Source: Atriophallophorus winterbourni
Lineage: Eukaryota > Platyhelminthes > Trematoda > Plagiorchiida > Microphallidae
Direction of reading: 5' to 3'
DNA: 64,000 bases
NCBI GenBank assembly: GCA_013407085.1
Contig: JACCGJ010010859.1
Location: 1-64,000, forward strand
Below, piece after piece: positions 8,588 to 33,807 of the stretch. The notes below the pieces were generated by a model. The model made no database searches and had not been told where the DNA came from. It was given only the letters and a program-made list of their open reading frames with translations. The first letter of the stretch is position 1; the number at the start of each line of letters is the position of its first letter. Made by a program: the position numbers and the translations under genes.

Positions 8588-10320
8588 ATTCCAAAGGATT
8601 TAGAATTAATGGATACAATAAAATGACCGAAAATCTATTTAATTGCTCATCTAGTAATGGCAAAATTGATGGTAGACCTACGCATAAATTTATCTCCATC
8701 TGAAATTGATAAAATTCGAACATACATTAATATTAATATTAAAAATTGAAAATAAACATGTCTTTGATATGCAGAATTCACATGTCGCATCATATTCTTT
8801 GTGATATTTGGCTATCAATTTTTTTCGTCAACTTGCAGGCGTAACTAACAAATGTACTATTATTCACGAATTGTTCCGAAGGCACAGCATTTTCATAATG
8901 GTTAAAGAAGAAATTCACTGGAGGATTTTCCGAATCAGTTTCCACGAGAATGTAGCGTAACCTTGATAACTAGTCGCGTATTTATTATCTGAAATGTGGG
9001 TGTCTATATAAGTGTTCATTATCCCTATTAAACATTTTGTAGACTTCTGGAAAACGGTAATGTGTTTCGCGAAGACCGCAAAATTTTTAATCATACATAA
9101 AACCGTTATAATCAACCAGTCAAAAGTTCTTCATGTAAAAATTTTATCATTAAAAGTTGGATATATCGAAATGGATATAGGTTCATATTTTTTTAGAAAC
9201 AAGTAACGAATATTACGAAAGTGTGTAGATGCTGCAGGATTTTGTGTATCATATCACTATTTGAGACCATTTTTATTTTGCTTTGAGATAACTAGCCCCA
9301 TGGAAGAAACAAATTCGTAATCATAACGAAAACAACTGACTGTTCAATTAGATTCTGTCTTTTAGTACTATAATTATATATACTCAACCCAGAAACATCT
9401 GATGGTTATTAAATTCATTATAATTTGAAAAATCACAGATATCTTATCAACAAACATAATTACAAATATTTGACCTTGATTTATCTTCTAGTTTGTAGTG
9501 TGAGTAGTGTTGTTAATTGATTAAAGCAAACTACTGTTCAAATTTCGTTGTACGAAATTAATGATACGTTCGGTCACCTTAGTTTATTAGCAAAGTTTGA
9601 ATTTGCACATTAGGATGAATTAAATTAAAGCACTGTCTCCGCACTTGAAAATTATCGAACAAATCTTCATGGTTTACGAAAGAAACAAGTACATTTTAGC
9701 AGATGCATCGATTGTAACAACTACAGTGGTCAATAATATTATAATATAATTACCAAAGTGCACTACATGAGTAAATAAACATAAGGATCTTACCAACATC
9801 AGCTATAATGGGTAATAATGTAGAGTGAGGGAAAATATCAAATTGCGTCAATTATATTGAGGACATATTGCAATACTAAACCTAACGTCTTTCACTTTGC
9901 TTGCACAGGACCCGAGCATCATGGATGCAATATTGTTTGCGTAATTCCCCGCGTTTCACATTCACTTTCGATAGCGTCTCAATTTCGACAAACGTTCTAC
10001 CGTTTCAAATTAATCATATCCGTCCTTTCGGTGCTTTCTGCCCTTGCGCCAGGGTTGAGTTTGTTGTTCTTTATGCCATCCAGAATCTCAAGATAATCAA
10101 TCAATACTGATGCACTTTACATCAGTGTAATATCACTTTCAATGTATTTGTAATAGTCCGAATGGTCTCGAGCAAATATTATAAAAGCGCGCTCAAGTGT
10201 TTCATGTTTAGCTCGTAAGAACTTTATCCGAATGTGTATCTTTCTAAAATCGTCATGGCAGAATTTTATACGCAGACAGTTGTTTCTCGATTCAGTGTAC
10301 ATTTCCATAAATGCTAAAAT
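8588..10320. other. Spacer with one GC-richer patch
   Basis: Mostly AT-rich. The patch at about 9900-10100 is clearly richer in GC and is open in two plus frames (up to 79 codons). Its minus strand reads LEILDGIKNNK and further charged residues before stops. It may be an old retroelement or exon fragment, but no family was recognised. Confidence 0.3.
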
Positions 10321-10374
10321 AAACGTAATGAATGACGGAAAAGCATGCAAATGAATATTTTGTTAAAACGTAAT
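10321..10374 (+). mobile_element. 36-bp insertion of the hammerhead-repeat 3' end, with TSD
   Basis: The segment 10330-10365 is nearly identical to the 3' part of the 49.4 kb element (GAATGACGGAAAAGCATG and onward to ATTTTGTT). It is bracketed by AAACGTAAT at 10321-10329 and 10366-10374, read as a 9-bp target-site duplication. It looks like an extremely 5'-truncated insertion of the hammerhead family. Confidence 0.7.
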
Positions 10375-11799
10375 ATACTTTGTCATACAATGTTCGGTGT
10401 TGGAGAAGATCTCGCTATGATCAAACACTACATGAAATTGGTATCTTCATACGAAATTCATCGTCTATCTACTACCCGCAATCAATGATTATTTTACATA
10501 TATATTTTGTTTTATCAGCAACCAGATTTCATGTCTGCTCGTTCAAACCCATGTAGAAAAACGGAACATTCGATGCTCCATATACATTATTGGCACAAAT
10601 ATTCACATGAACTAAATATAAACACTACTCAAATTTGAAAAATGTTGAATGTTGAACTATAAATAAATGAGCTAGAATGATCGTTGGGATCAAAGGGAGT
10701 TTTAGGTTACATTTCATTCCAGACATAGCTGAACCAAAATCTGATTGTCTGGAGGATAATTTGCGGTGTTTAAAACGCGATGGTATTGGTTGATTTTTGA
10801 TGTAAAATGTATAAAAGATTAATAAAGATAGATGAGACAAAAACTTAAAAATCTATGTATTACTATCGCTACGATAACTTGAAAATGATTAACTTGCTTG
10901 AACACTTATATAAGCTTTTACGGCTTCACTCATGAATAAATGATTGCTTTTATAGATGTGAGAGAAATTTCAATGTTTTTCAACTTTCACTTAAGCCCCC
11001 CACAATCCAGGCTATCAAAATAATACATACCTGCGAAATAACTTGGTTGCGAATGGTAGTCTCTAATTTGATAGCGAATCTCTCTCAATAGATATTCTTC
11101 CTTTGTTGCAGGATAAGTAAACTAACATAGCGCTAAAATATGTATTTGAGTTTACCTATACATAAGGAAGTCGGTTAATAGACTGGTTACTATAGACTAT
11201 AATGTTCTGTGGTTAGTAGTTAATTCTGATTTTTGACGAATATTCTCAAATATTCGTGAAACAAATTAAACGTATGATGGTTTGATCGCGTTTTTCATCC
11301 ATACTTAATATAAAAACTAGATGTTTGACCTAAAATTTATTACAATATATATCTATATATATTTAGGCAAAAAATACAAATGATGATAAGTAACATATAT
11401 CAACTAAATACAACGTGATTTATTATCATATATCGATGATTATAGCATGATAGTATTTGCAATGGCCTTTCTAATGTTTGTAACATCAATAGCTAAATAT
11501 ATCCATGAACAACATTCGGAACTATTTAGTTTATCCTGAATAATGCATATCAATGTTCTATGTATTCATTAATTAAATTGTTATAAAACAGAAGATCAAG
11601 GTAATTTGACAAAGATTGAGGTTTTTAAATGATGAGGTCGACGCTTATATCAGTCGCAATGCCTAGAATGCACGCAGTATAAACCAATCCAGCAAATGCA
11701 ATGCTCTTAACAGATGTCAAATATAAAGTGCTTTTCAACTAGTAAAAGTTATTTAAACTCGATTAGCAGTATAAATCACCGCGAAACAGAAACTAGTGA

Positions 11800-11841
<42 letters not shown>

Positions 11842-12089
11842 TATAGAAGTTGAAACACGATACATGTGCTAAAAACACGTTTTCTGTTAAGAATAAATAA
11901 TTATTCCTAATATTGTAACCCATTTTGAATTTTCATCAAAACATTTCTGACAACATTCGTGATCATTTTATTAAAAGTAATATCCTTATTTTGAAAATAA
12001 ATATTGAGAACTTGGACTTACATTGTTTTATTACAGGCACTAGAATGTTGTAGAAAATAAAATTAGTGATGACTAGAATTGGCCATAAA
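10375..12089. other. AT-rich spacer with an (AT)n microsatellite
   Basis: No coding or RNA features recognised. An interrupted AT dinucleotide run lies at 11803-11845. Confidence 0.45.
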
Positions 12090-12639
12090 TGAAAATTATT
12101 GTAAACAATTTGCGCTTGAATGCCACTGTTGCGTTAGGTTGGTACGACCACCCAGTTCAATCACATGAGCTTGAACTCATTTAGTTAGGGTTTACACCCA
12201 TGCCCATGAAAATGACTAAACTGCATGCATTTCCATCACACCCCATCTTTTTCCAACAGTGGCATACAGGCGCTAAATGTTTACCATTAATCCACTGTTT
12301 CAAGCTCATGCGTATCCAGATCCTACTGTCCATTCTTGATGAGTTCAAACAGTGTGTGATGGAAATGCATTTAAATGAGCTTTTTGTTCACGGTAATGGG
12401 TTTTAACACTATCTAAGTAATTTGGGGCTCATGTGATTAAATAGGTTGTTGGTACCAACCTTATTCTATAGTGGCATACAAGTGAAACCAGTGTACCGTT
12501 CTTTCACTGTCTCAAGCGTATGCGGATCGTCACCTTATTGTCCCTGATTATCTGATGAGTGCAAACAGCACGAAACCGGTCGTGGTGTGTGTGTGTGTGA
12601 TGGAACTGCCAGCAAGTGAGCCTATTTGAAAATTATTGT
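12090..12639 (+). mobile_element. Hammerhead-ribozyme retroelement, about 1.5 units, with 13-bp TSD
   Basis: TGAAAATTATTGT occurs at 12090-12102 and 12627-12639 and brackets a 524-bp insertion, read as a target-site duplication. Inside are two related blocks, each with a ribozyme position. The first core (12336-12342, TTGATGA) is degenerate and its GAAA half is missing. The second is intact: CTGATGA at 12552-12558, stem II GTGC (12559-12562) with GCAC (12568-12571) around AAACA, GAAA at 12572-12575, then the ACCGGT palindrome and C before the predicted cut after 12581. Stem I is weak and G-U rich. The dimeric layout resembles known hammerhead retroelements, which use tandem copies. Confidence 0.75.
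12552..12587 (+). ncRNA. Hammerhead ribozyme core, type I layout
   Basis: All core residues are present (CTGATGA and GAAA joined by a perfect 4-bp stem II with an AAACA loop). Stem III is very short, A-C with G-U around CG, and its ACCGGT is self-complementary. This is the arrangement described for dimer-acting hammerheads in Penelope-like elements and schistosome repeats. Stem I is mostly A-U and G-U pairs, so activity may be poor. Confidence 0.6.
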
Positions 12640-14505
12640 GGTTGAGTGCCCACAATTTGTTTAGAGGTTATAATTGTGAAAAGGATAAAACATACATAAC
12701 AGCTTAAAATATTATAAGGGAATCCCCGATACCATGATGGCATGGAGCAAATAAAGTTCATTTAAAACTAGATTCAAGTTTGCAACCTCGAGAATCGTAT
12801 GCACGTGCGAATCTTTCAATGAACTCAGGTAAAAAATGGTTTACTACAATCGTCGTTATTCAATTTCTCCAGCCTACAGAGCGTCAGGTTTGTGAATTCG
12901 TAGCTTTTGATTTACATTCTATTGATGAAACTGTAGCTATTATGGTGCTTGCGAATCCGTTAAGAAAACGATCAACATATATTTGGATGTTTGAAATAAG
13001 ATGCACAATTGCGTGCAACACACTGCTACTGTTCAATTCTATGCTTCAAATCGAGTAAAAGTTGGTATTTCAAAATCATTTATATTTAGATGCAACGCTG
13101 TTTAGAATGAACGAAAAATTTCAAATGTGAACATACGCATAAACAGAATAATAAAAGTCATTTTAGTGAAATAGAAAAAAACTAATCTAATTATAAAAAT
13201 TAAAAACCCACGTAATACGGAATTTCGCATAGCTGATAGAGTAAGTTGTGGAAACCAAGAGGTGTATGTGAAAGTTTGACATAAGCACAAAGATATTAAT
13301 GGATTAATGTTTTCAGTCTGTATAGGTCATTTCAAATACTAAATTTGTGAAAATTTATTTTGTGTTTCCAAGAGTTAATTTGATTAAAAATTTGATGGTT
13401 TTGCTGTTATTTGAACGGACGCATGTTCGGATTTCCTTCATCCATCAATTAAACATTTTGGGACCTTAGCTTAATATATACCCCTACTTCATTTTATTTT
13501 ATTTTTATTACACAGATTCCAAAGGTCTTTTGCAGTGCATTCTTAGTGAAATTAACTGACGATCGTAAGTTCCGACAATCTTTGTGCCGCAAATCATTGT
13601 GGTGAATGGTGAATCATGCCAAATTGTTAGGAGGTATCCATCACACTTTTTGAGCCACTTTGAGGTGACGATCCAAATGAGACAGCCACAAATACTTACA
13701 AAGTAAATTTTAATGTTTGCAACGAATTTTTTTTACATTTTTTCAGGGTTGGCTGTTATTAATTGTTTGTTTGTTTGTTTCATGTTGCTAAATTTACACT
13801 ATCTCACCAACTGCTAAACAGTTTTTATTTTACCTTCTGTGCCACACCCCAAAACGAAAAAAAGCAACTATCAGGGATACGTCATCTTATGTTCTGGCCT
13901 GATTTGCTTACAGAAACACGTTCCCAATACCACCAATGACATGAAAATTGGCCCATCTTAAAAAGCGATCAACAGGTGTACGACCCTTGGACTCGAAACA
14001 ACTGCTACCAGCATGGTTGGCAGCTTGATGAACGAAGAAACAGTATTGTGTTCCGAGATTTGGTGAATATTGAAGTTTGTAACTATTTAACATATGACTT
14101 GCGTTAGTTACATGCGCCGCGAAATATTTTTGGCATTGCTATCAAAAGCAACTTTAGTTGCTCACTCGAATGCTTGCGACAAGAAGACGATGTGCTTTGA
14201 ATATCACAAATGCAACGTATAGGTTTGTCATGTGTATGCATTTTGCATTAAACTACAACATCAAGTTCTTCCTACAAACAACCAGAAATCTCTTGATTTG
14301 AATTGCAGTGCATTTTCTCTGTTGGACCTCTAACTGGGACAACAAATTGACATATATATGTAACATGCAGTTGTATATCTGATAATGAGCGTCCGGGATT
14401 ATACTTCAAAGTCACAAAAATGTTAGCACGTATTTAAAAATGCAATAAGGATTATGCAAAATGTAAATCAAAAATGTTGATATGTAGTTTGAAAAATATT
14501 AGGGA
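12640..14505. other. Spacer with one unexplained 92-codon frame
   Basis: A plus-strand frame is open at 12780-13058 (92 codons, starting at a TTG). It has no recognised domain and no clear splice signals and could be chance. A short GTTT tandem run lies near 13765-13780. Nothing else was recognised. Confidence 0.3.
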
Positions 14506-14539
14506 TTGTTGTTGTTGGCTTCCTCCGGTCGATGTCGAC

Positions 14540-14905
14540 CATGGATGTACATCATAATCGCAAGAATGTTAATGTTCTAAAGCTTTTGGAATTACTAAAC
14601 TGTCCGATTCGGGAGGAACAATCTCTACGGCAGCGCTGGCAACGATGGTCAGAACTCGGTTGTATTGCATCAGCTGCACGCCAGCAGGGTGATCTGCGTT
14701 CAGCAGCCAAGAGCTGTATCTGCTCCTCCCAGCTTGCACACGACGCATTACATAATGCCTCCAATGTGAGTGGTCAATAGCAAGTTCTTCCAAACTCGCG
14801 GTGTCAATGCCAAGAGATTTCATATCTGTTTTGCAAATGTCTTCGTAACGCAAGTGCGGTCTTCCCAATGGTCGATTTCCTAGGGAATATACACAAGATA
14901 TTCTG
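14540..14905 (-). pseudogene. Non-LTR retrotransposon C-terminal fragment
   Basis: A minus-strand frame of 113 codons (14569-14910) contains NRPLGRPHLRYEDICKTDMK, then an acidic block and WRHYVMRRV. This is the C-terminal end seen after the RT domain in several non-LTR families (G-R-P-x-L-R-Y-x-D-x-C-K-x-D-x-K). No RT or endonuclease motifs remain, so the copy is 5'-truncated. The same sequence recurs, more decayed, at 59.4-59.96 kb and 62.56-62.7 kb. The clade was not determined. Confidence 0.6.
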
Positions 14906-14910
14906 GTCAA

Positions 14911-17029
14911 TGATTAGCCGAAAATGGTTTCCATAATATCAACGTGACTCTAATTATCCTACAATACTTTTCGTAACTTATGAATACGTTTCCACCTTCA
15001 CTGCAGATAATTTAAAATTTTCTCACTACATTTGGCGAATGACATGTGATTTATAGACATAACTGGCAGAGTTAAATTTAGTATACTTTTCTTGAGTCGA
15101 TCGAGAAACAATAGTTAGAATTGTAGATTCTAAATTCAATCTGATCAAGATGGCTTGAAATAAAAATAGCTGGACACTCAGTGGTAAATATCATCTGAAA
15201 TTCTGTGTACGAATATCAACTAAATGGTGAATTAGCAAATACATGAAATTTATGCGTTTTCTACGGATAATTATGGCTTTGAAATTATTCGATAATGAAA
15301 CTGACATGATTGAATTGGCAGAAGTTTTCGTCCTTAAGTTTAGAGGAACGTATTTATATTAATGGCACGACAACTTAATAAAAGAAACCTTTTAAAAATG
15401 AACAATTTACTAATATATAGCTATACGTGAGAGCTATAATCTCAGGAACTATCAAGAAAAGTTATCATATACACTGCTTTTGAGCTAAAGTAAGCGTGAA
15501 ACACTAGTCCAATATGGGCGGATATAGTCGGATATTTTCTATGTATTTAGTACTTGTGAGTAGTCACAAAAAATAATGAATGAACTTTACATAACCTATA
15601 CGTTATAATATCCTGACAACTTTAGTATCGATGACTACTGTATATCCGAAACACATATATTCAAAGCTTTCACATATGGAACATACGACATATACAAGTA
15701 TTTTATACTAGTTGTTCACGTTCAACCGTCGATTTAATGTGCCATTTAATCGCTTAAACACTTGATTTCCAATCGCTAAAATTGTAGTATCAGAAATCAT
15801 TGATCATTAATTAGCTTTCTAACATTACACTTAGACGAATGCTGTGTATTTGTATCCGGTAATCATGTTTTTTTACTAACGAGATAAATCATTACATGCA
15901 CAGGGATGCCATGCGATACTCGAAATCGACTACTTAGCTGTTATAAAAACTCTGTGTATCCACTTGAATGAGGTTAAATGATGAAGAAATTTGGAGCAGT
16001 TATAGGAAAAGGTAGGAAAGCAGAATTGCAAATATATTTTGCTTATTCAAACTATTGAAACATTTAAAGAGATTATTCACAAATTTTGCGAAGAAACATC
16101 TGAAAAAGCTTAACAATGTTAGCGAGTTGATAAGTAACTGGTCGAGAAATGTTATTTACGTTTGTCGCCTAACATTTTTAATGAAATATGAAATACATTG
16201 AAAAGTAGTGTGTTTGAGTCCTGGTGGCATAATAACAAACTCTACGATCAATAAAAGTATCTAATAAAAATGATTGATGAAAAATACTAATTTCTTGGAA
16301 AGAATATATTCAGATAATACAGTGTTTGATACTTTCGTGCTTTTTGCACAAGTGTTCACACCATGTAGAAGCTGAAGATTATTCACCACTCATATCATTA
16401 AAATTCACGTGCTTATTTAAAAAATCAACCTATCCCTAGAGGATTTAAAAGCTGTTTTTTGACAAAGCATTCTCTGTTCACAACTGAAACCTAATTTTTT
16501 AATCCACATAATGGATCTTTGATCAAATCAAATCATCCGTTCAAGTTTTTGAGTGTTGATTTACAAGGAACGATATCTATTCCAACTTAAAGAGGTTTTA
16601 TTATCAATTATCCTAGACTGTTCTCGTTTTGCTTTCGCTTTCTAATGCCACGATATATCAAGCGCTACTGTCATTTCACGGTTCATTGAAATGTTTTGGG
16701 TTTCGGCATGCCATCTTACGTACACTCTGATCGTGGTTCATAATTCATGTTTACCTTGCTGAAATCCTTCACAAACTCTCAAGGTGTGGCTACGAGCATA
16801 TCTACGATGTACACAATGCAAGGGAAAGTGTAGGTGTACAATATTGAGTGCTTCGTTCTTAAACACACAAATGGAAACACACAAATTAATCAAACATATA
16901 TTTCCGGACGAAAGTCCCATTATCAATGTCATAATGAAATTACATTTACGACTCCTTTAAAAATCATGAACGCAAACATTGAAGTACGGTTTGTTTAACT
17001 TTTAGACGTATATTCTAGGGTATTGTAGG
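14911..17029. other. AT-rich spacer, nothing recognised
   Basis: Both strands were read. Only short chance frames are present, with no motif, repeat family or splice-site cluster. Confidence 0.45.
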
Positions 17030-17074: not shown

Positions 17075-19139
17075 ATAAATGTTTAATTGCAAATGAGCAA
17101 AAAGCGATTTATCAATGTGTGCCAATCTACGTACCGATTAGTGTTTATTTTTGAGTGACAACTGTTTTTCTCTCAAACGATATGTGACTCACCTTTTATC
17201 GTTATGATCACTGTGCAGAATCGATCAAACTATTAATAATCGTTTTCTGTTCCGGCGACCACACACCAAGGCAAATTAATTTTGAAATTGCGAAAATGAT
17301 TTTCAAGATTTTCTTAGAATTATTTTTAAAAAAATATTAATTTCATTATTTTAACACGTTTTGCTGTATAATACGTCGGTTTATACATTTGAACCAAGAT
17401 GTCGTTTGGGAAAACGAAGCAATATACAAAATAATTGAGATGAATTTAATATCGTTAATATGATATGCACCTTATGAATTATAATTTTCATGATAAAAAT
17501 GTATTAATTCAACTTAAACATTGAAAAGCACCCGAAATTACTAATATTCATCAATTAACTTTTCTTTTTCTCATTCATGTCGATAAACAACCGATTGCAG
17601 AGAATAGAATGTCGGTTCATTATGGATTTTTCTATTAAACATAAAACTAGAGTTTCAACGATAATCACGTTAAATACATCTGTTTTTGATTTGCTTATAA
17701 AAAAATCATATTATTTGAGATGCTTCATTGAGAAAATTTAACCAGTTCTATTCTATTCCATCCCGAAATTTTTTTAATTTGCAGTAGACCCATGGTCTTA
17801 TAAAACCATAAAAATAAATTTATGCGATTTATCTGCATTAATATTTAAGATTGTAGAACATAACATTTATCATTCGAGAATTGCTTCGCAAATTCAATGA
17901 AACATGTAGACATAAATAAATGGTTTTCCGAAATCACTCACCAAATTTGCCTTTAATCTCGACTGTATTAATAATTAAAAATCAATAGATTATTTATTAA
18001 TTGAAATTTTCAAAGCATTTTCGGTTGCAATTTCCAGCAAATTCCCTCACGATATATTAACCCGATTCAAATGACGCATTATGAAGAGAAAGTCAAAGCA
18101 ATATTTTTATGAAAAAACAACATTTATAAGGATTTGAATTTTCTATAAATTTAAATGTGAATAAACAAAGTTATACTTGAATAATATCTAATCAACTCTA
18201 CCCCAACGTAAAATGTGCCTGAGTCTTATCGCCATGAACCAAATAATTAAAGGTGAAATATAGCAATATTATCTTAGTAGAATTTTTAATTCAAACGGAT
18301 TTCGCTACTAGCTTTCATGCAAATTTTCAGCTCATATTTCAAAAACTCAACTGTCAAATACATAGAACTCATGTGTTCACATAAAATATTAATCAATATT
18401 TTTGGGCTGTTACACCGAAGAAAGGTCGAAATAAGCCGCATATTTTATAATTGAGTTTATAAAAGGTCACCCATAGGAAGCATTTGTCACGGTTTACTTT
18501 TATCAGTGGAAATGAAATGCAAGTTGAATACTAATCAGTGAAATCATGCTATTAAATTATTTTTTATGGTCAGTTATGATTATATGATTCAGGGAAATTA
18601 ATCAAAAATGTATTTATTTTATTTGAAATCAATTTATTGAACGGGCAATGGAAAGGTAACAAGATTTTACAACTGTTACAGACAACCACCGCAACATTTT
18701 GATCCTCGCGAGTTGCAATGGAAATGATAGGATGATCATTATACTTATGGAGATGTTTAAAAATAAACTTTGATATTACTATGTATGATCGGGTGATACA
18801 CAGTGTACAGGAAGTCTTAAATGAATAAATTTCCGTACAATTTTATTTTAAATAAGAATTGATTTTAAATAATTATATTTTGTACAGTCAGTTAGCATTT
18901 CTCAATGCACAGGGTTGAATTTATAAGGCTGCAATTTTTTTGTTTACTAAGCGCTCAATGATTAATTTCAAATATGTATTATTATCAGGATGGATAGCTG
19001 TTTAAATATTTATTCAAAAACACACTTGTAACGAAGCAGGGATGGTCCTTTTCAACTGATAGATTTGACAACAAATATAACTTTTAGTATTATTTTGAAA
19101 TAAAATATTAGATTCATAAAAATTAATGCAACAACATAT
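17075..19139. other. AT-rich spacer, nothing recognised
   Basis: Very AT-rich with frequent stops in all frames. No repeat or RNA feature was recognised. Confidence 0.45.
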
Positions 19140-19510
19140 GATCTGAATTTGCGATTTCGAGGATAAATCCTCATTTGCAAATTGAAATTTAGCTTTTATA
19201 TGGGGACTAATCTAAGTCCCACAGTTGGTACAATGTAGCACAGATAACTGTTTGGAATATTTTCGCAACATTCCAATAACAGCAGGATGGTAGTTTTTGT
19301 TTAAAGTCAGATTTTTATTAATAAGTAGTATATGACGTTCGAAAAGCAGGACAGAAGCACACGACCGGTTTCGCGGTTATTGCCGCTCATCAGGTGTGCG
19401 TATTCGTGACCTGACATTCGAACGCCGTTCTGACTCTGTGCTAAACCCATTTATTTGCGATTTCGAGGATAAATCCTCATTTGCAAATTGAAATTTAGCT
19501 TGATCTGAAT
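19140..19510 (-). mobile_element. Short hammerhead element with terminal direct repeats and 9-bp TSD
   Basis: A 353-bp insertion (19149-19501) is bracketed by GATCTGAAT at 19140-19148 and 19502-19510 (repeated once more at 19511-19519). Its two ends are a 47-bp direct repeat (19149-19195 and 19455-19501), each containing a small hairpin of GAGGA and TCCTC around TAAA. The spacing between repeats is 306 bp. An intact hammerhead ribozyme lies between them on the minus strand. It has no coding capacity. The layout (repeat, ribozyme, repeat, TSD) resembles retrozymes or non-autonomous Penelope-like elements; that assignment is inference. Confidence 0.75.
19336..19424 (-). ncRNA. Intact hammerhead ribozyme with extended stem I
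   Basis: On the minus strand, CTGATGA (19393-19387) is followed by stem II GCGG and CCGC around CAATAA, then GAAA (19372-19369), a short stem III within the palindrome ACCGGT, and C as the cleavage base (19363). The inner stem I is a perfect 6 bp: 19394-19399 with 19357-19362. Beyond an internal loop there are 4 bp (CAGG and CCTG, 19410-19413 with 19347-19350), then 8 bp (CGTTCGAA and TTCGAACG, 19417-19424 with 19336-19343). Every conserved core residue is present. Internal loops in stem I are where natural type I hammerheads make tertiary contacts. This is the best ribozyme in the window. Confidence 0.88.
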
Positions 19511-19717: not shown

Positions 19718-22700
19718 TTTATTTCATGTTCCATATTTGAACCTATATTTATCATTTTAACTAAGCAGTCTTCAATGCAATATCTTCGAGTTACAGCATG
19801 TCGAAAAACATGAAGCATTTGAGAACCTCTGAGTAGTAGTAGTTTTAGTTACATTGTTTCTATGAAGAAATGCCTGGAACTACTGAAAATTCATTTGATC
19901 AATTTTATTTTCATCCTTTGTAAAATATTGTACACAAAAGTGAACGAATTTTGCCAAAATGTTTTTATCTTCAAGTAAATATGGCAACAATCACATAAAA
20001 CATTTTCAAAAGTAAACGTACCAGTGACGTCGCATCCTTTATCAATTGGATCTGCAAAATGTTTTTTAACATGGAAACAATAATCTCTAATATTTTATTT
20101 TTAAATATAAATGAATTAAGCGATAATACTGCAGTAGAGACTGTTTCGTACATGCGAGTTTTCTTCCTCTGAATAGAATATCCACTAATTCTGAAAGAGA
20201 ATTGCGAAATATTCGAGATGTTTTATAGAAATACTCATAATATTTTATGAATATATTTTTTTATTTTGCAACGCTCACTGTCAGCAGCTTTGGCTTTCAC
20301 TATACAAGAAATATTGTATATACATTTGAAATGTTTCATTCACTCATGATTAGCATTCTCAATGTTCACTTACATAGAACAATGATGTTTGAGTTAAAAT
20401 TTTACAGAACAATTACCAATTGATAAACAAACGTAGACTATTAGGATCGTACGAAGAGTCACGATGTTCAAATACAAAGTCACAGAGTAAATAATTAGAA
20501 ACTTGAATTCGAAATGATTACAAAAACATTTCGGGTCATTTCAGCCACGATGCAAACAAGTAATAAATAATATTAAATTGAGTGAAATTTCAAGATAATT
20601 TAGAAATTAAAGATTCGAACGAGCGTTATGTACATCTCACAGTTTCATCAATCTACGAATAGCAATTTCCAAACGAAATCAATAACAATGACTACTTCGA
20701 ATAAAATATATGTTACAGTATTTTAAATGTAAAACATTTTTTGAATCATTTAATATACTCAGTTTTTAATGAAATTTTGACAAACCTTGTTCAGTTTCCT
20801 GATTGATAGCAACTGCGTGGACGAATCATGATATTTGATGTTAAAAATATTTAATTATACTAAAATTCATGATCATATATCATCAGTAGGTAAAATACGA
20901 ACGTTTATTTATTTCGATAAATTTGGGCTCACCGCCTATGTTTAATTATATATAATTATATATATTACCTTCAATAAGTAAGATTTCACATTTTTTGGCT
21001 TTTGAAATAAACACAGGATAAACATTATTAGTCAGAATAATGAACTTGAGATCATCGAACGATAATTTTTACGAATAATCAAAATATATTTCTCAATCAA
21101 TTAACTTACAGCCACTACGTTTGGATCGAAACAATTTTTTGGATTGTTTATCTAGGAAATGTAGAAATTGTTAGAAAGCTTCAAGTGTGATTCAATTATA
21201 ACAAACTGAAAACAATAAAATCTGAGAGTTCCTAGATCGTTAAGCGTCATTACCTTTACATTCAGATATGGTGACTGTAAAGTAAATAATTTAAATTTAA
21301 ATTAGTTAAACAATAACGGAAGAGTTTTTCGCTCTTACAAGTTGCTTATCTTAAGTTTATTTATTACGGAGCTATACGGGTGATATGGTTTTTTTACTGG
21401 TTAGAACGCATGGATGTCGTGTTCATTTCTTTAAATATAGTTTGCAAAAATTTGACACCTATGTAAAGATTTGGGTCTTAAAACTCACTGGCGAAGATTT
21501 CTAAACGCTGATTTTTCATGTCGTTTCATGTATTTTGGTGAGATGTGGGAAACTGTGCGCTATTACTTAATATGTTGTTATCGGAAAAGGAACTATAGGA
21601 ACAGCAATTTTTCAATTTTTACGATGAGTGTTCAAGACCTTTAATTCGAACGCTTATTTATAATTGAATAATTTAATAATATAATAATAATATAATGTTT
21701 GATTTTAATCCAGATTGCGTTCGATGCGCTTTTAAAATCATTTCCCTCCGATTTCCATAAAAGAAAAATTATTATCTGCATAATAAGTAAGCAGCATAAA
21801 TGATATACTTCTTGTACATTCGCTCGAAAAAATTAGTGAATAACTGCGTTGTTAAAATTTAGGAGTATTTCCACTTTAAATGAGTTGCATTATTAAGATA
21901 AAATAATTATTTTGTTTTCTTCATAGTTCTTCTGTGGTATCTTCTTTAGTTCTTCTTCATAAGTTATAATAACCTTTGACGAAGTCTTAAGAACCATTGG
22001 ACATAAGCATCACAACCAAGTTAAAAAATATCGTATAGCTATCAACAGGTGGAACCAGTAATATTTCGTATCCCATGTTGATTTATTTTTAAATTTTAAT
22101 ATTTTGGTTTATTCTTCCTATGGAAATTCACAAACGAATTAAGGTGGGGAAGAGCTATAGATTTGACGACTTTGTGATCCTACCTGGAGTCGATTGGGGA
22201 AAATAGATTTTTTCAATCATATTATGTTATCGGCAATGAACAAAAAATCCTTAGAACATTTATTACATACGATGTTACCTTTATTTTGACCCTCTGTTGA
22301 ATATACAAAATTCATTACACTTCATAAAACCACTCCCATGTGACATGAAAAGTCTTTTATAGCAATGTTTTCAACTGTTTCAAATCCAAAAATCTAAACA
22401 CGAATTCTGATTGATGCATTTTGACTCGACATAACGAACAGAAAGATTAAAATCTGATAACTATTATTTTCACATGTAAGAAATTGACTAAATTATATCC
22501 AAACTGTTTACAAGCTATTCATGTTCATGAGAATAAAGTACTTGATTACCACTTTTTTACTTTCAAGTCTTTTTTAGATATAACATCGAGATTAATCAGA
22601 TAAATCTGCGTTCAACATTTTTCGGTCATATTGATTAAAAGTAAATCCCTTCGATATTTAACATCGAACTTTCTGCTACACATTTATCTCAGACGTCCAA

Positions 22701-23551
22701 AAATGAATCCTTTTCATAACAAATTTTGAAATGGAAATCTAGGCTGTAGGATATGGAAAAGTCATCGATTCAGAACTCCGTACATTCTTTAAGAATATTG
22801 TGATCGAGATCTTCCCAGCTCTCATTAGATTACCAAACCCAATCGTTACTGGTGTAAGTAAATCAATGGTAGCACATCAAGTAGATGCATTTGAATCTGC
22901 TACACAATGGCCGGTTTATTAGTAACATATTCACACTTATTTAACGAAACGTTCATACCATGTTTACTGTTGGAATGTGATGAGAATCATTTTCCGTTTT
23001 ACCCGAAATCCAATTGTCGAGTCAACAATAATTGAATTTATGATTTTTATCATTGGTTTATGAAAATAGTAATGTTCAATCAAATTGTTATCGAGGAAAT
23101 ATTAAGCAATCGTTGTTGAGAAGTGAATATCTAACCATTTGAAAATATGATTTTTGACGTATTTAACAACATTCCGCATGCAAAGACACAAACAGATAAC
23201 ACCTAAATATACTTACGCGGTATCAATATAAAATCGTAGTTGTTGTGTTCTGTAACAATTTCTTGAGTTAAAGTTGGATAGTGTAGATAACGTCCCACCA
23301 ATAATTTGTCAAGGGTATATAACTTACCGAATTGGAAAAACAGTTCTGAAATATTAAAATTGTGGATGACTATATATGTTTCGTGATACGATAAAATTCT
23401 CAACAATTCATTTCATGAATTAATTGCATCAATACACACTAAAATGCATATATGGAGTAAGTTGCATTAACGGACCAAACTTACCACTTAATGATTCACG
23501 GCACATAGTAACAAAAATCAATAGAGCGCACAGGAACCTGAGCTGACGCAT
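19718..23551 (-). CDS. Micro-exon gene encoding a predicted secreted protein
   Basis: Spliced minus-strand gene. Exons: 23485-23551 (ATG, signal peptide), 23328-23345 (18 nt), 23217-23261 (45), 21489-21500 (12), 21254-21274 (21), 21110-21151 (42), 20969-20998 (30), 20786-20812 (27), 20279-20299 (21), 20022-20051 (30), terminal 19860-19882 ending in TAG. Every internal exon is a multiple of three and starts and ends in phase 1, with no stop when joined. The minimum product is about 111 residues: a hydrophobic leader, then short hydrophilic blocks rich in Lys, Glu and Ser. Donors are GTAAGT, GTGAGT, GTAATA and similar; acceptors are pyrimidine-rich ending in AG. An AATAAA lies at 19718-19723. 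This is the architecture of schistosome micro-exon genes (MEGs), usually secreted from glands or tegument and made variable by exon skipping. The MEG family was not identified. Three further optional exons are listed separately. Confidence 0.8.
19860..19882 (-). CDS. Micro-exon gene terminal coding exon
   Basis: A good acceptor (GAATTTTCAG) precedes seven codons (VVPGISS, the first completed by the previous exon's G) and TAG. A downstream AATAAA at 19718-19723 would give a 3' UTR of about 150 nt. A second acceptor 54 nt further on (exon from 19828) would give an alternative tail of about a dozen residues, so two C-termini are possible. Confidence 0.6.
20417..22848 (-). CDS. Three further candidate micro-exons (optional)
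   Basis: Three more segments satisfy the same rule (AG before, GT after, multiple of three, phase 1, no stop): 22834-22848 (15 nt, LTIGF), 22279-22293 (15 nt, with a 27-nt variant using a later donor) and 20417-20437 (21 nt, VYVCLSI). Each could be a skipped exon or chance. Their splice sites are acceptable but no stronger than random matches might be in this AT-rich sequence. Including all three gives about 128 residues. Confidence 0.4.
22743..22921 (+). other. Unassigned plus-strand open segment
   Basis: Open for 59 codons from an AG (possible acceptor) to TAG. It is richer in GC than its surroundings and protein-like in composition (ELRTFFKNIVIEIFPALIRL, then a QVDAFESATQWPVY end). It lacks a Met start of its own and no family was recognised. 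It lies antisense to an intron of the micro-exon gene and overlaps one of its optional exons. It could be an exon of an overlapping gene, a retrocopy fragment or chance. Confidence 0.3.
23485..23551 (-). CDS. Micro-exon gene exon 1: signal peptide
   Basis: The first ATG (23549-23551) opens 22 codons beginning MRQLRFLCALLIFVTM, a basic start followed by a hydrophobic core, then CRESLS. One base of the next codon precedes a strong GTAAGT donor (23484-23479), giving phase 1. This fits a secretory signal peptide. No TATA box was assigned upstream. Confidence 0.8.
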
Positions 23552-23984
23552 TGTTTAATAGTGAACAGATATTTAGCGACAGAATTATATATCTCAAAGC
23601 ATCTATTCAACCAATCCAAGTAGTCACAGCTTTAGCAGAAATACTATTGGCGATCACTGGTTTCGAAGTGATTTTAACTGCAAAAAATAGTCCAATACGT
23701 GAGTTTGGATTTCGGCCGATGGAAAAGTTTACTTAATAATGGAAATTACAATGCAACTGATCTACTCGACGAAAACATATTGACAACCTCAAAATTAATA
23801 AATTAGTTACAAAAACCTAACTACCATACGCAATTGATAAATCAGATTATAATCTTCTGCTTTAACAGATTTTCTTGAATCCATTTACTGAATCTTAACA
23901 AAAAATATTAACGCTCGGAAGAACTGCTGCAACTATTACTAACGAGAACATATTTGAAATATACATAGATAAAAAATATAGTTT
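23552..23984. other. Upstream region of the micro-exon gene
   Basis: This 430-bp interval between the gene start and the Penelope-like element must hold the minus-strand promoter if the gene model is right. A plus-strand 61-codon frame here has no recognised features. No promoter motif could be assigned. Confidence 0.3.
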
Positions 23985-24063
23985 CAATCCATCGGCATAT
24001 GTTTGGGACCGATCGTGTATTCATAATGCAAAGTAATTTGAGTGCAATCAGTTACAGCAGTTT

Positions 24064-24107
24064 TTGGGTAACGTTTCACTTCTGACACAGTAGCTTCGTC
24101 AGACCAA
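24064..24107 (-). ncRNA. Candidate hammerhead ribozyme in the Penelope-like 3' region
   Basis: Minus strand: CTGACGA (fits CUGANGA; 24102-24096), an imperfect stem II of 18 nt (CUACUG pairing with CAGAAG across one A-A mismatch, plus a bulge), then GAAAC and a palindromic ACGU, with a stem I of UUGGU against ACC-C-AA. The predicted cut lies between 24070 and 24069. Hammerheads are known from the terminal repeats of Penelope-like elements, so the position is right. The imperfect stem II makes this a degenerate or weak example. Confidence 0.4.
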
Positions 24108-24413
24108 GGGTGATAGTCAAGACAGGGAACATGATTAAGTTATAGTCACCCTACCACCACTTACTTGACCTTACCGCTAAACAGCCTATAGTACGCCCAC
24201 AATGTGTCAAGTCTCGTGGGAATGACCAGGATCAATGATCGATTTTCCTACTAGTGTATCCACATCAATCTAATACAGTTGAGCACTTTCAAGGTCGGTT
24301 TACACAGTGGCCCACATGCGTAAGCGTACATAACTAACTGGGCTAAGGTTAAGCTATTTTTGAAGAAAAACAAAAATCTAATTAACTAGGAGATATAAGG
24401 TGATTAACAACTA

Positions 24414-24830
24414 TTACCTTCGCCTAGGTGCCGAGCGCCACATTGTGGAGATTTCTGCCACATCCACTTTATTGACCGCCGGTCCGCCTATTTGGGCAAT
24501 TTCGACCGCCTTCGCATGTAGGCGTTGGATATGCGGTTTAATACTGCGTTTCAATATTGCCACATTGTCTAGATCGACGCTGTAGCCCGTATCTAAAACG
24601 TGCTCCGCCAAGGTAGAATCACGAATAAGTGATTAATATTCCCTAACATCCCGCGGCTGTCTCCGGACACGCTTTCAGTGTTCTTCGATTAGGTTATGAA
24701 TTTCCCTTGATGTCTGCCCTATGTAAACACCTGAACTGTCATTACAGTGGATTTTGTAGATGCTGTTCTTAACGCTAGATAAAGGTGTCTTATTCTTGAG
24801 GTGCATCAGAACCGAACGAATATTTTCCCT
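24414..24830 (-). pseudogene. GIY-YIG endonuclease domain of the Penelope-like element
   Basis: One frame beyond the RT the minus strand reads SIYKIHCNDSSGVYIGQTSR followed by EIHNLIEEH. The IYKI and VYIG halves correspond to the GIY and YIG motifs, the Arg follows at the usual distance, and the Glu and His follow in the helix. A stop comes directly after EEH. The frame then resumes with AEHVLDTGYSVDLDNVAIL, the conserved C-terminal H...GH-like extension of PLE endonucleases. Confidence 0.75.
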
Positions 24831-26270
24831 TTCTTATAAGTTACGCATATGGCAGCCTGGTTAAATATTCCACGTATCGCTTTAGATGTGCATCTTACAT
24901 ACGGTATATAAACTGTATCTAGCCAATTTCTCTCTGGTTTTTCTGACGGGTATTTTACCTTCATCAATTGGCGTTTTACAAAAAGTTTTGGATAACCGTG
25001 GTCTATAAGCCCGTGGCTCGCTTCACGGTGCGTTTGTTTTCGGTCGTCGCTGCACATATGCTCTATCCAATGGAAAACAGAACAATCTATGGACCCAAAT
25101 TCCTGTCTTGAATGAGCTGAAGTGTATCGTACTACAGCATCAGTATCGATAGGTTTCCGTTCGACACAAGGTTTTATTTTCCGGTCTACGTTTTTTGCTA
25201 GGCAGTCGAAAAATTTAAGAGTGCCTGTGCAAGATTCAACTTCCTTTGTGACCGTATTACTTGGGTCTATTTCATTCAAATAGCTGAAGAAGGCCTATAA
25301 CTGATCTCGCTTGTTGATAACAAATGTGTCATCAACACAACGCCACCATAAATTTGGCTTAAGCCCTTAATTGTTAAGGACTTTGTTATCGAAATGCTCT
25401 ATATACATGTTCGCAAGTACTGGAGATATCAGTGAGCCCATTGACAACCCATTTTGTCTATATACTTGCTCATTATATATGAAGTGGTTCATGCTTAGGC
25501 AGATCGATACAACATTGATAATTTGCTTGACGCTCAAGTTTGTGCGATTTGACAAACTGGCATCAGATTCCAAGGCCCGATTAGCTAGTTGTATCAACGT
25601 TGGTGAACAAAGCGCTAACATCAAAGCTAAACATTATATCATCACCATACATGTTTCCTGACTCTAAGCGTGCTGCAAAGTCATATGCGTCCGTGATTAA
25701 CGAGGCTGTATTACCGACTAAAGTTTTCAACAAATAAGCCAAATGTCTAGCTATCTCGTGCGCAAGTTATCCGATACCATCGACGATACGTCTTACAGGA
25801 ATGCCTTCTTTATGTATTTTAGGTAGGCCTTAGAACATAGGAGTTAGAGTAGACTTGGGATACAGGTTATATCACAAACCCTTTCCCAAACTCTCTTTAA
25901 CGCTAGGTAAGTACGAATAGACTACTTTTTTCAGTTATTTATATCCTCTTTCATTTTGCCATTATCTATCCGTTCATAAGGGCCCTCGGAAAAGTGTACA
26001 TCAACCTTGTCTAAATAATCGGTTTTGTTAAAAAATTACTGTTACAAAAACTTTATCAGCCTTAGTAATAGCTATATTCGTATCTTGCTTCAGTGAGGGA
26101 AGTGCTTGTCTTTCGTGTGAATCAAGGTTTGCATTGACTTGTTCCTGGTTTTTAATGACACCAGCGATATAGTTTCTTACCACGTCTGCCTGTTCATTGG
26201 GAAGTGCATTTAATGACACCTTAATAAGATCCTGAGCCTTCATAGAGCTCTTACCTATGCAGAAATTCAA
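24806..26270 (-). pseudogene. Penelope-like reverse transcriptase, broken
   Basis: Landmarks: LKQDTNIAITKADK near 26060 (family: L..D..I.I..ADKG), VYRQNGLSMGSLISPVLANM at about 25410-25480 (family GxxMGSPLSPVLANI), and the catalytic WWRCVDDTFVI at about 25330-25360 (intact Asp pair). Then come a conserved linker with LKFFDCL, IKPCVERKPIDTD and the DHGYP signature before the endonuclease. At least two in-frame stops flank the VDD motif, and there are frame changes near 25700-26030 and 24825. These motifs identify the family but the gene is not functional. Confidence 0.8.
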
Positions 26271-26870
26271 GCCCTTCTACAACAATTTTCGCTCAGCTTG
26301 CCAAAGTTACCGATTAGAACACTAGAATACTGGATGCCTGATAATGACTTATTAGATTCGTCTGATTAACGTTTCTAATAAAACTCTAATAAATTGTTGA
26401 ACTTACGGTTTTGTCTTTCTCCTATGCGCTACGTTTGTGTGGCTAAAACCACCTCCTATTTTCCACAAATTCTGCAGAAATCCGCTTCAGATAATCCCAC
26501 TCGCAGTTTCAACCCCATTCTCGAGGCTTTTGATCGAGCGCCCAATAGGGTTTCATTGACCCGGTGAATCCTTTGTTTAAAAACACTTTGGATGTGCTCG
26601 CGGCCGTTTTTGTCGATTTGTGTGAATTATCCGGAGGTTTTACCACAAGAGCCCTTGGTATTACGTCGAGCTTCTTGTAAGGAAAGTTGAAGATGGGGTG
26701 GTTCACCCATCTGGCTTCATATTCCGCTGTTCTCACCAACTTGCTGGTCAATGTTTGAAAACGGGGCTTGTAGGAGTCAGCCATCGATTGGAATATGTTT
26801 GGGACAGATCGTGTATTCATAATGCAAAGAAATTTGAGTGCAATCGGTATTTCAAAATATAGTTTCATTA

Positions 26871-27194
26871 TTTGATTAGTAGCCATAATTAGTTGCAATT
26901 AATGTCAGTATTATTTTTATTAGATATCACAATTCATTTTTCATGACTGATCCTATGATACATTATTAATTTTTTTTAGCGCTACGTATTGGTAAAACGC
27001 TTGGTTTTTATTAGATACATTATGCAACGCAATATTTCTGATTGAAATAATGGTCTAAATCAGCCAGTTTGATCAAGATATATTTAAAGGTATCCAACAG
27101 GCATATGAATAATGCTTAAAAATATCTTTAAAAAATACTTCGAAATAAACCTGAATAAGCAATTTCCTCATCCGTTGACTGCTTTACACTGTAT
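26871..27194. other. AT-rich spacer, nothing recognised
   Basis: Separates the Penelope-like element from the tail of the second CR1-like copy. Confidence 0.4.
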
Positions 27195-27332
27195 ACTAGA
27201 TTCAAGATTCAAGATTAAAGATTTGTGGTTGAAAAAGCAATTAACTTTACAATAACCATAGAGAGAAACTATAGTTACAAATGTATGTATATGTATCAAT
27301 AAAATCAAAATCAATTGGTCGATGATAGATTA

Positions 27333-30779: not shown

Positions 30780-32690
30780 TTGCTTCGAGCTATCACTACT
30801 GCAAATCTATGGGATTTCCTTGAATTCAAATCAGCTAATGAAATTTTGAAACGTTTTTACGGTCAACTCCGTATTATCATTGATTTATCATCGAACGTTA
30901 AAATAATATGCAGCAAACAGAGTCCAAAAAAGCCTCTAGGAAATGGATGTGTAAACGTGACAATGCCTGGTACAAATACTTGGACGATTCGTCTGGGCTA
31001 ACTTGATGCAATTACACCTTAATGCGAAATAAGAGTGTCTGCCTCATTCAAAAAGACAGAAAAGATTACAAAATCAGTCTAGTCGAAAAATTCGTTATGA
31101 ATCCCAAAGCATTGTACAAACACGTCAATGACCTCCGGAATTTTAAAATGGGAATACCGCCACTGGCTTCTGCTACTGGCATAGCGACATCATTAAAAGA
31201 TTGTGCAAACGTTTTCCGACAGCAATTTGCATCAATTGTCTCAAAAGTGTAGACCGATGGACAGTCTTTAAACTCTGACAGCTGCAGCCTGCCAATTCTT
31301 CACTGGGTGGAATTTTCCCCTCCAACGTTGTTGAAACAAAATTAATGACGATGAAGAAAACACCAGGTATAGATAATATACACCCAAACATTTTGTATAA
31401 TCTCTCTATCGAATTGGCAATACCAACTTTATACGTGTTCACGATAATGTTCGAGCCGAGCTTTGTGCAAGAAACTTGTAAAACTACCCTGAGCATTCCC
31501 ATCTACAAAAGTGGCGAGAGAAAAATTCCATTAAACTATCGTCCGATAGCTTAATTACCGGTGCTATTGAAAGTAATGGAGTACATCATAGCTGATGCCT
31601 TGCGGAATCACTTTGAGATTAATAATTTAATCTCCGAGGCACCACTGGATTCAGGAAAAAACGATCTTGCTTGACAAATTTGCTATTAGCAAATAAGCTT
31701 GGTCGAGTTACTGATGCCGGCAACACCGTAACATGATTTATATCGATTTCCTCACGAGCTTTTCACAAGGATCGTCCTCGAACGGCTTTTTGTTATATAT
31801 ATATATATATCTAGATATATCCTCTCTTTATATATATATCTATCTATCTATCCTCTCTCTCATCTCTCTATCTCTATAGCTATATATCGATACTATCTAT
31901 ATAGATATATATATAACGGCATGCCTCCTGTAGTGCAGGTCGCCGTCTTATTTCTGCGGATGACGCAAAGCTTTGGTGCAAGATAAACCTTACACCGACC
32001 TCATTACCTGCCACGGGATCTCGATATGATTTAAACCTGGTCCCTAGACAACGAAATGCCATTGAATGCTTCGAAATGCATCCTACTGTCGCTCAACAGC
32101 AAGTTGAGCAAAGAATATTATCTTGGTCATACTATTATTAAACCCGCCTCCTCCGAAAAATATTTAAGCGTGATTATCCAATCTGACTTAGAAAACTCAA
32201 TGCGATGTCGAGTCGCTGCTAGCAAAGCTGAAAGCAACTTGGGTCTCCTTAGAAGAGTCCTAAGTTCGTTTTCCCCCAACATTGTCTGCAAAATGATTTC
32301 AACCTACATCCGTCCTCATGTCGAATATTCTATACCGGAATGGGATCCATGGTTGAAAAAATTACTCAGCTATTAGAAAATCCACAGCACAGAGCGACAA
32401 AACTCGTCCATACGAAATGAGACTTAAAATATTGAATTTGCATTCGGCTCAACACAGACGGAAACGAGGAGCACTAATATTCATTTGGACAGTGCTTAAT
32501 CAAACAAATCATCCTTGCAATCGTTTGTTTCATCTTTTCCACAACCCATATTTGTGTGATCAATAATCTAAATTTTCCAACAGCATAGCAGGTCGAACTG
32601 CCGCGAATATTCATTTTCCGTTAGCAATGCGGTGCGACGAAATTTCGATATTAATTTGACCTTCATAGGCTATCATCATGTTCACTACGA
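30780..32690 (+). pseudogene. CR1-like element of a second lineage, interrupted by microsatellite
   Basis: Plus-strand remnant: an endonuclease-RT linker from about 30850 (KKASRKWMCKRDNAWYKYLD), KALYKHVNDLRNFKMGIPPL, then RT KKTPGIDNIHPNIL, TLSIPIYKSGERKIPLNYRP, RSCLTNLLLA and MIYIDF. The central RT part is missing and a TATA/CTCT microsatellite (31793-31916) stands in its place. The reading resumes with SADDAKLWCKI (catalytic Asp pair), MPLNASKCILLSLNSK, the thumb region and C-terminal RTAANIHFP-like segments. The DNA from 32007 on is unit 1 of the tandem array. Confidence 0.7.
31793..31916. repeat. Compound TA / CTCT / TATC microsatellite
   Basis: A low-complexity run of TA, TCTA and CTCT repeats inside the plus-strand RT. 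It replaces the segment between the MIYIDF and ADD motifs, so a deletion accompanied it. Confidence 0.85.
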
Positions 32691-32693
32691 AAA

Positions 32694-32900
32694 ATGATCG
32701 TACGATTTATCGAAAACGTTGAAGGTTTCACATTACTCGACATGAATCATCAATGCAGTGGACCGACTACGTTTCGAATGCAAGAAAACGACACCGAAGT
32801 AAACGGTCGAGAGTTTTCTCACCAACCATTTAGATCAAACTACGATAAAAATATGAGACCGTTTGAAACATTCTATTTCAATTGGTTTGCTAGTTTGTGA
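32694..32900 (+). other. Conserved 68-codon frame in array unit 1 (copies at 34661, 36636, 38610)
   Basis: ATG-initiated frame beginning MIVRFIENVEGFTLLDMNHQ and ending FNWFASL. It is kept open in all four units (34661-34867, 36636-36842, 38610-38816), with only a few amino-acid differences in unit 3. It starts close to the end of the RT homology. Charged, with no signal peptide or recognised domain. Openness in all copies may only reflect how recent the duplication is. Confidence 0.3.
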
Positions 32901-33590
32901 TTCAGCTTCGTCTTGTATTTTGACCGAAGAAAGTAAGAAAACCAAAATGTAGAATCTGAAAATATTTTCTGAGTAATTTGAAAATTCTGAATGATTCATC
33001 ATTTTATCATGAAAAATAATTGATCAATATCTGGCTAAATTGATTCTGCATAGCGCGATAGCGGCAGACAATAGATTCGATGGTGGAACGAGCCTATTCA
33101 ACGCTGGTTAAACTAATATTGAAAGCAAATTATTCGCAATCGGAAAAATTATTGAAATCATATTAGAGTTCAGTTTTCTGAAAGCTTTTTGATCAATATG
33201 AAATTAATCACTCGAATTTTAAAAGTAAAATAATGTAAAAAATTTCAGGAAATCTTATTCACTTATTTTTTGAATATAAAAAAATTGTATTTTGCTTCTC
33301 TTGAACTGTAGATGTTATCGATGAACAGAATGACAAAGGTAAACAGTATTTAGTCGGAAACAGTCTATTCTAGCAAAATAATTTAAATACAAAATACTAA
33401 AATTGCTATAACTGCTTTAGTTATTACCGACAGCCGATAAATTATTAATACATCGATTAGTGTGCAAATAAGTTACAGGCGTAACAAAAATCATTTTATT
33501 TATCAATTTTATATTGCTGAAACACGATTATCTCTACAGGTTTCAAATAAAAAATGTAAACCTTGAAGAAATATTTATTTCCTTTTTTAG

Positions 33591-33807
33591 TTTTCCTGTA
33601 CAAACATTCATGTATAACAAGAGTTATAACTCTACGGTAATCTGGTTATCTTCTCCTCTGACCATCAGTGCGAACGAGAAAAGCGATTATAACGGGCTCC
33701 TAGTAGATAGCTCCGTGTTGAAGGAACATTATTATAATAGATGCGTGTTTTACGCTTATAAATGTTTTGACCAACCGGAGAAAAATAATCACAGTACTGA
33801 TGAATGA
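33591..33807 (+). other. Exon-like open frame in array unit 1
   Basis: A pyrimidine-rich acceptor (TTTCCTTTTTTAG, ending 33590) precedes 71 codons to TGA (FPVQTFMYNKSYNSTVIWLS onward, ending NNHSTDE), which looks like a terminal exon. The frame actually opens at 33514. In units 2, 3 and 4 the TAT codon of the NKSYNS stretch is TAG, so only unit 1 is open throughout. No family was recognised. The antisense 63-codon frames in all units are shadows of this segment. Confidence 0.35.

Follow-up and report, generated by a model that had tools for sequence, protein, structure and literature searches.

Introduction

Blood flukes make variable secreted proteins from genes of tiny in-frame exons, and such micro-exon genes (MEGs) are hard to find because none of their exons is long enough for an open reading frame (ORF) search. 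The locus studied here raises the question of whether a gene of this kind is encoded on the minus strand of contig JACCGJ010010859.1 of the trematode Atriophallophorus winterbourni (assembly GCA_013407085.1), from position 23551 down to 19718 of its first 64,000 nucleotides (nt), a stretch hereafter called the window. A preliminary reading of the DNA letters (the sequence-only reading) had proposed a single hidden gene for a secreted variant protein at this place, composed of a signal-peptide exon, nine internal exons and a terminal exon, and lying between two ribozyme-bearing elements. Our analysis indicated that this locus, termed locus B, is very probably a real micro-exon gene, present in its 5′ part or as a whole, as judged from its splice signals, reading frame and codon use.

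The exon chain of locus B

Re-reading of the sequence revealed the proposed exon chain letter for letter, each exon being flanked by AG at its 5′ side and GT at its 3′ side on the minus strand, except that the 67-nt start exon has no acceptor. The nine internal exons, of 18, 45, 12, 21, 42, 30, 27, 21 and 30 nt, are all in phase 1 and stop-free, and the introns of the model range from 66 to 1,716 nt. Splicing of this model affords an open frame of 111 amino acids with a signal-peptide-like N terminus. Two extra candidates of 15 and 39 nt also keep the frame, and a version containing both of them without the 12-nt exon gives 125 amino acids. The statement that a search for long ORFs would miss the gene was borne out, as neither strand has an open frame of at least 100 amino acids within 19.7–23.6 kilobases (kb).

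Two generic splice matrices were used, the first fixed before any candidate was inspected and the second shifted toward AT-rich introns; the scores draw on only three exon bases before the donor and one after the acceptor. The predicted exons and associated features are as follows.

23485–23551, minus strand: start exon, 67 nt, encoding a 22-residue signal-peptide-like N terminus (hydropathy peak 2.93) and ending in phase 1; donor 10.5 bits (99.9th percentile)
23328–23345, minus strand: micro-exon, 18 nt, phase 1; acceptor 99.8th and donor 99.6th percentile
23217–23261, minus strand: micro-exon, 45 nt; donor 98.4th percentile, acceptor weak (at the 66th percentile among all the AGs of this strand); an alternative of 33 nt, 23249–23217, has a better acceptor (83rd percentile)
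22279–22293, minus strand: candidate micro-exon, 15 nt, absent from the sequence-only reading, open in phase 1; acceptor 89th and donor 97th percentile
21489–21500, minus strand: micro-exon, 12 nt; 14.4 bits by a matrix trained on other minus-strand exons, below the 10.5-bit cut of the generic-matrix list
21254–21274, minus strand: micro-exon, 21 nt; 13.8 bits (generic), acceptor 98th percentile
21110–21151, minus strand: micro-exon, 42 nt; 12.7 bits (generic)
20969–20998, minus strand: micro-exon, 30 nt; weak acceptor (80th percentile), donor 96.5th percentile, not significant alone
20786–20812, minus strand: micro-exon, 27 nt; 12.1 bits by the first matrix, 10.3 bits by the second
20279–20299, minus strand: micro-exon, 21 nt; 11.0 and 10.5 bits by the two generic matrices, 15.1 bits by a matrix trained without this exon
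20152–20190, minus strand: candidate micro-exon, 39 nt, likewise absent from the earlier model; 14.2 bits (generic), low leave-one-out score by the trained matrix (1.9 + 3.9)
20022–20051, minus strand: micro-exon, 30 nt; 13.7 bits (generic)
19860–19882, minus strand: proposed terminal exon, 23 nt, ending in TAG; acceptor 5.0 bits (89th percentile)
19718–19723, minus strand: AATAAA, one of 100 on the minus strand of the 64 kb

Locus B compared with shuffled and simulated DNA

Nine consecutive in-phase exons had been held to be unlikely by chance. This argument is insufficient by itself, because AG and GT occur often and acceptance had been restricted to short exons divisible by three. In addition, an initial strict chain scan with a generic matrix missed the chain, as many of the sites fell below its thresholds; we therefore turned to counts by length class and phase and compared them with simulation. 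All AG...GT intervals of 6–81 nt were taken as candidates and tallied on each strand by phase, length class and splice score. With the first matrix, at a threshold of at least 11 bits, locus B contained 11 candidates, including 9 whose lengths were multiples of three and 7 that were open in phase 1. The corresponding means in 300 local dinucleotide shuffles, made in tiles of 500 base pairs (bp), were 3.2, 1.1 and 0.4, with maxima of 10, 5 and 3. The second matrix gave 12, 10 and 7, compared with shuffled means of 4.9, 1.7 and 0.7 and maxima of 13, 6 and 3. A count of seven non-redundant candidates (11 bits or more, length divisible by three, open in phase 1) within any 3.7 kb was reached by only 1 of 240 simulated strands.

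The start exon provided a separate line of evidence. On both strands of the window, 23551–23485 was the top-scoring phase-1 start exon of signal-peptide type, equalled in 5 of 240 simulated strands. When this exon and the exons within the next 3.5 kb were scored together, in a joint test that was devised after locus B had been seen, the result was 38.9, compared with a best value of 32.3 among 1,000 simulated strands, none of which reached it. Taken as a whole, locus B is beyond chance; the earlier conclusion held at the level of the locus, and the reasoning first given for it was insufficient alone.

Micro-exon statistics across the window

The excess was not confined to locus B. With transposons masked, the minus strand yielded, by the first matrix at 11 bits or more, 42, 11 and 11 candidates by length class, and 34 of the 42 were open in phase 1. 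A Markov simulation gave 10.4 ± 3.3 phase-1-open candidates (maximum 20 in 400), and dinucleotide shuffles, confined to 500-bp tiles because composition varies along the window, gave 8.1 ± 2.7 (maximum 17 in 300). The masked plus strand showed 24, 20 and 18 candidates by length class under the same settings, with 15 open in phase 1, and was at the null level at 13 bits (3 vs. 3.3). The second matrix was applied to the unmasked window at 14 bits or more. On the minus strand, it returned 18, 8 and 3 non-redundant candidates in length classes 0, 1 and 2; 17 of these 18 were stop-free in phase 1, and 11 and 8 were so in phases 0 and 2. On the plus strand, the counts were 10, 10 and 7, with 7 of the 10 open in phase 1. 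The third-order Markov null for this test was 4.1 ± 2.0 phase-1-open candidates (maximum 11 in 240). Repeating the main count with the first matrix led to the same picture.

The minus-strand candidates are concentrated in three blocks, A (62–48 kb), B (23.5–20 kb) and C (2.8–0.8 kb). These were assembled from phase-1-open candidates; the same spans also contain candidates that are multiples of three and closed in phase 1 (3 of 14 in A, 4 of 11 in B and none of 7 in C). The candidates outside locus B are listed below.

48228–62045, minus strand: block A, ten phase-1 candidates at 62045–62019, 60415–60380, 59541–59518, 58492–58463, 57605–57582, 55721–55692, 52800–52771, 51321–51304, 49129–49100 and 48278–48228
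17942–17962 (21 nt) and 17193–17210 (18 nt), minus strand: two candidate micro-exons of 14.8 and 15.2 bits, with codon scores at the null level
787–2845, minus strand: block C, phase-1 candidates at 2845–2819, 2154–2140, 1959–1939, 1867–1832 (or 1861–1832), 1753–1739, 1445–1431 and 822–787

Block C is the strongest of the three and has the top score per length. Its summed excess of 37.9 over 2.3 kb (at least 11 bits) exceeds 28.6, the highest value for any 3.7-kb stretch among 240 simulated strands, and the block holds 7 or 6 phase-1-open candidates by the two matrices, compared with shuffled means of 0.5 or 0.6 (maximum 3 in 300). The block runs toward the end of the window. Block A is the weakest: it has 10 or 9 phase-1-open candidates vs. 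2.5 or 3.1 in shuffles, a level reached in 0 and 4 of 300, and its count of multiples of three was reached by 5 and 40 of 300. A strong start exon was found for block B only; none that convinced was seen for block A at 60420–64000, or for block C among the best six starts per phase listed for 2850–17000. The window probably holds at least two genes of MEG type, A and B, and block C is either a third one or a continuation of B. The proposal of one hidden gene thus survived as to the micro-exon gene and failed as to its singleness. Given two further blocks on the same strand, the window probably contains a cluster of MEGs, or very long MEGs whose introns have been invaded by transposons.

Codon composition was analyzed as well. 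Over 238 whole codons of the chosen exons, the fraction of G at codon positions 1, 2 and 3 was 0.30, 0.16 and 0.12. The score for average protein composition was +0.052 bits per codon, compared with −0.123 in null exons, and was reached by none of 4,000 resamples; the exons tested had been chosen from scored lists, and one (1867–1832) had been picked by eye. When the groups were scored one by one, the share of resamples that attained the observed score was 0.0045 for block A, 0.0040 for block C, 0.020 for the nine internal exons first proposed, 0.038 for the two extra exons of locus B and 0.45, that is, at the null, for the pair near 17 kb. The codon composition agrees with coding micro-exons.

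Flanking mobile elements

Two elements adjoin locus B.

19147–19501, minus strand: short element with an HH9-type hammerhead match (19414–19340), lying between two identical 49-bp repeats (19147–19195 and 19453–19501)
23987–26848, minus strand: decayed Penelope-like element with reverse transcriptase (RT)-like and GIY-YIG-like stretches and a 66-bp end match (60 of 66 identical)

The downstream element is oriented like the locus B gene. It gave a full-length match to HH9 (RF02275) at 45.2 bits, with an E value of 3.7e-9. The gathering score, 52, was not attained, and at gathering scores Rfam returned no match anywhere in the window. Its sequence suggests that the hammerhead is likely to be functional as a ribozyme. 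The element on the other side is presumably Penelope-like, in view of its RT-like and GIY-YIG-like stretches, which were recognised by eye, and the short repeat at both ends. Pfam returned nothing for 24809–25294 and only a sub-threshold, unrelated match for 26512–26898. The 3′ end of this element is located about 435 bp 5′ of the ATG of locus B, and the element might have brought promoter sequence to the locus. No hammerhead was detected in it at E values up to 1 in an Rfam scan of 17–27 kb, and no hammerhead family matched 23950–24450 or 26600–27300 at E values up to 10. Of the two ribozyme-bearing neighbors originally proposed, only the downstream one was recovered as such.

Elsewhere in the window, frames of a long interspersed nuclear element (LINE) at 4986–5834 and 6436–7581 were confirmed by Pfam. 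A tandem array at 32007–39897 has four units of about 1,974 bp that are 98.5–99.1% identical and carry plus-strand open frames resembling RT fragments (113 amino acids in three units and 100 in one). A dispersed repeat was observed at 12112–12591 and 49435–49730 (about 74–98% identical in pieces), and an assembly gap of 20 N lies at 40681–40700, beside a TA-repeat.

Alternative explanations

Besides the late design of the joint test and the way in which exons entered the codon test, a number of observations weigh against a micro-exon gene at locus B. Of the nine internal exons, five (45, 12, 30 at 20998, 27, and 21 at 20299) stay below 11 bits when scored singly by the second generic matrix. 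The summed excess of the internal exons, 26.9, is below the maximum of 28.6 in 240 simulated strands, so that the internal exons alone fail some tests. Among 11 candidates of at least 10.5 bits and of lengths divisible by three, phase 1 and phase 0 are open in 7 each; phase 1 is therefore no more often open than phase 0 at this locus, and it is the length class and the start exon that carry the weight. The model omits four candidates that are closed in phase 1 (22249, 20968, 20652 and 19873), and 53308, 53206 and 52394 were likewise omitted from block A. The masked plus strand is itself mildly raised at 11 bits (15 vs. 8.0, reached in 6 of 300 shuffles), and the unmasked plus strand has 21 phase-1-open candidates of at least 12 bits vs. 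11.6, equal to the simulated maximum of 21, an excess that may be explained by transposon frames, including the four tandem copies with RT fragments. With 64 candidates in total, the minus strand shows no clear excess in number (54.1 ± 6.9 in shuffles, reached in 28 of 300), so that across the strand the signal is carried by length class and open phase. The proposed TAG exon and the AATAAA are present, and neither is above chance, given 5.2 acceptor sites of at least 5 bits per kb and the frequency of AATAAA noted above. A search of about 5.8 billion proteins found no homologue of block A or of the 125-amino-acid version of block B (block C was outside that search), and six published MEG motifs, written as patterns from the available text of PMC10526429, had no occurrence in A, B (two versions) or C. 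The weak sites, the failure of the strict scan and the openness of phase 0 would all suit a chain picked by eye from AT-rich sequence by chance. An excess specific to strand and length class, a strong start exon and the codon composition argue against such a chain, and we consider it highly improbable.

The lack of homologues may be expected for fast-evolving MEGs. The database does hold named fluke proteins: among the best 120 of 7792 matches to an RT query, in a search that admitted proteins of 0.55 to 1.75 times the query length, the best named one came from Paragonimus westermani (60%) and the best unnamed one reached 67%, which makes a fluke a likely source of the DNA; no match named Schistosoma was among those 120, which were mostly unnamed and prove little in this respect. 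A search of the PDB with block B gave a single match, to a designed protein (E 0.86), which was rejected. As neither a homologue nor a published motif was found, the assignment to MEGs rests on architecture and ties the locus to no named MEG family. This would also fit some other gene or genes with many small symmetrical exons, such as a VAL-6-like composite, a mucin or another extracellular protein, and VAL-6 is described as carrying MEG-like exons in the accessible part of PMC4350168. On the other side, Pfam placed none of the three blocks in a family at its cut-off (best for B, Cdc13_OB2, 14.3 bits vs. 25; best for C, Nup153, 11.7 vs. 25), and a signal-peptide start followed only by tiny exons is the layout of a MEG, which makes a different kind of gene rather unlikely. 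A decayed MEG copy that has lost its expression would account for the transposons on both sides and for some of the weak splice sites, and it is still less likely, as no join contains a stop and the 5′ sites are strong. With a micro-exon gene preferred, its extent has to be considered. Because the terminal exon and AATAAA are at chance level, the 3′ limit of locus B is provisional, and the gene may extend further. The chain possibly runs past 19860, a chance match in that case, through 17962 and 17210 into block C and off the window, a course to which we give serious weight, somewhat short of even; the hammerhead element would then sit inside an intron of locus B. It is favored by the two high-scoring candidates of the same strand and phase near 17 kb, by the lack of a convincing signal-peptide exon for block C among the listed starts, and by MEG introns of up to 5 kb, as given in the consulted portion of PMC10526429. 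Against it, five candidates of at least 12 bits in 19849–3001 are not significant compared with about three expected from the simulated rate, and about 14 kb separate 17210 from block C, an interval in which there is a LINE and all the candidates are weaker. A further elaboration appears very unlikely to us. In it, a single MEG with some 20 or more micro-exons would span more than 22 kb, beginning at 23551 and reaching block C by way of the hammerhead element; the intronic sense-strand hammerhead would cut the pre-mRNA, and a mobile self-cleaving ribozyme would thus help to set the micro-exon isoforms.

Predicted product and significance

For the micro-exon gene at locus B, transcription of the minus strand would start with the signal-peptide exon at 23551 and proceed along some 9 to 11 micro-exons, all symmetrical and in phase 1. 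Since the internal exons all have lengths divisible by three and the same starting phase, any of them could be skipped or included by alternative splicing with the frame intact, and one gene might thus yield many slightly different small secreted proteins. The earlier proposal of a secreted variant protein is supported as far as the signal-peptide-like start goes, and the predicted secretion would place the protein at the host–parasite interface. In a broader sense, bias in length class, phase and strand in raw DNA, compared with matched shuffles, reveals micro-exon blocks without RNA or homology, and genome-wide use of this test could count MEGs in flatworm lineages, the curation of which is called a high priority in the available text of PMC7653826.

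Comparison with known systems

The mobile elements around locus B resemble known ones in part. The short hammerhead element is non-coding, like the SmAlpha and Sm short interspersed nuclear elements (SINEs) and the animal retrozymes, according to the consulted sections of PMC4350168 and PMC7229834; in contrast to those, it scores below gathering for HH9 and is made up of a single unit and a 49-bp partial repeat. Hammerhead elements of the SmAlpha and Sm types lie next to, and are enriched in, S. mansoni MEGs (PMC4350168, in the part available); the ribozyme context of locus B is therefore expected rather than odd, and the one adjoining hammerhead element was counted in favor of a MEG. The upstream element differs from Penelope-like elements in its many stops and frame changes and in having no recognisable hammerhead.

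Compared with Schistosoma MEG-1 to MEG-32, as described in the accessible text of PMC10526429, the blocks here show no shared motif or detectable sequence similarity, and the introns of locus B fall within the 0.1–5 kb of Schistosoma MEGs except for the shortest, of 66 nt. The likeness lies in a signal-peptide first exon, symmetrical exons of 6–81 nt, clustering and nearby retroelements. An operational definition in the available part of PMC7653826 describes a MEG by at least seven exons, with at least half of the exons shorter than 70 nt and divisible by three and at least four of these consecutive. The locus B model has 11 predicted exons, or up to 13 with the two extra candidates; 9 of the 11 are shorter than 70 nt and divisible by three, all consecutively, and the internal exons are all in phase 1, in a model itself built from phase-1-open candidates. 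The first exon is of signal-peptide type by the hydropathy test only. The MEG-like architecture that had been proposed was supported. In tapeworms, ten clustered MEGs share a conserved amino-acid motif, whereas blocks A, B and C showed no similarity to one another by eye; the MEGs of Hymenolepis microstoma and Echinococcus are like those of the present window in their operational architecture and in clustering on one chromosome (PMC7653826, same part). In this comparison, locus B is ordinary in kind, a probable member of a known gene type, and belongs to a larger set of micro-exon blocks that the sequence-only reading had not seen.

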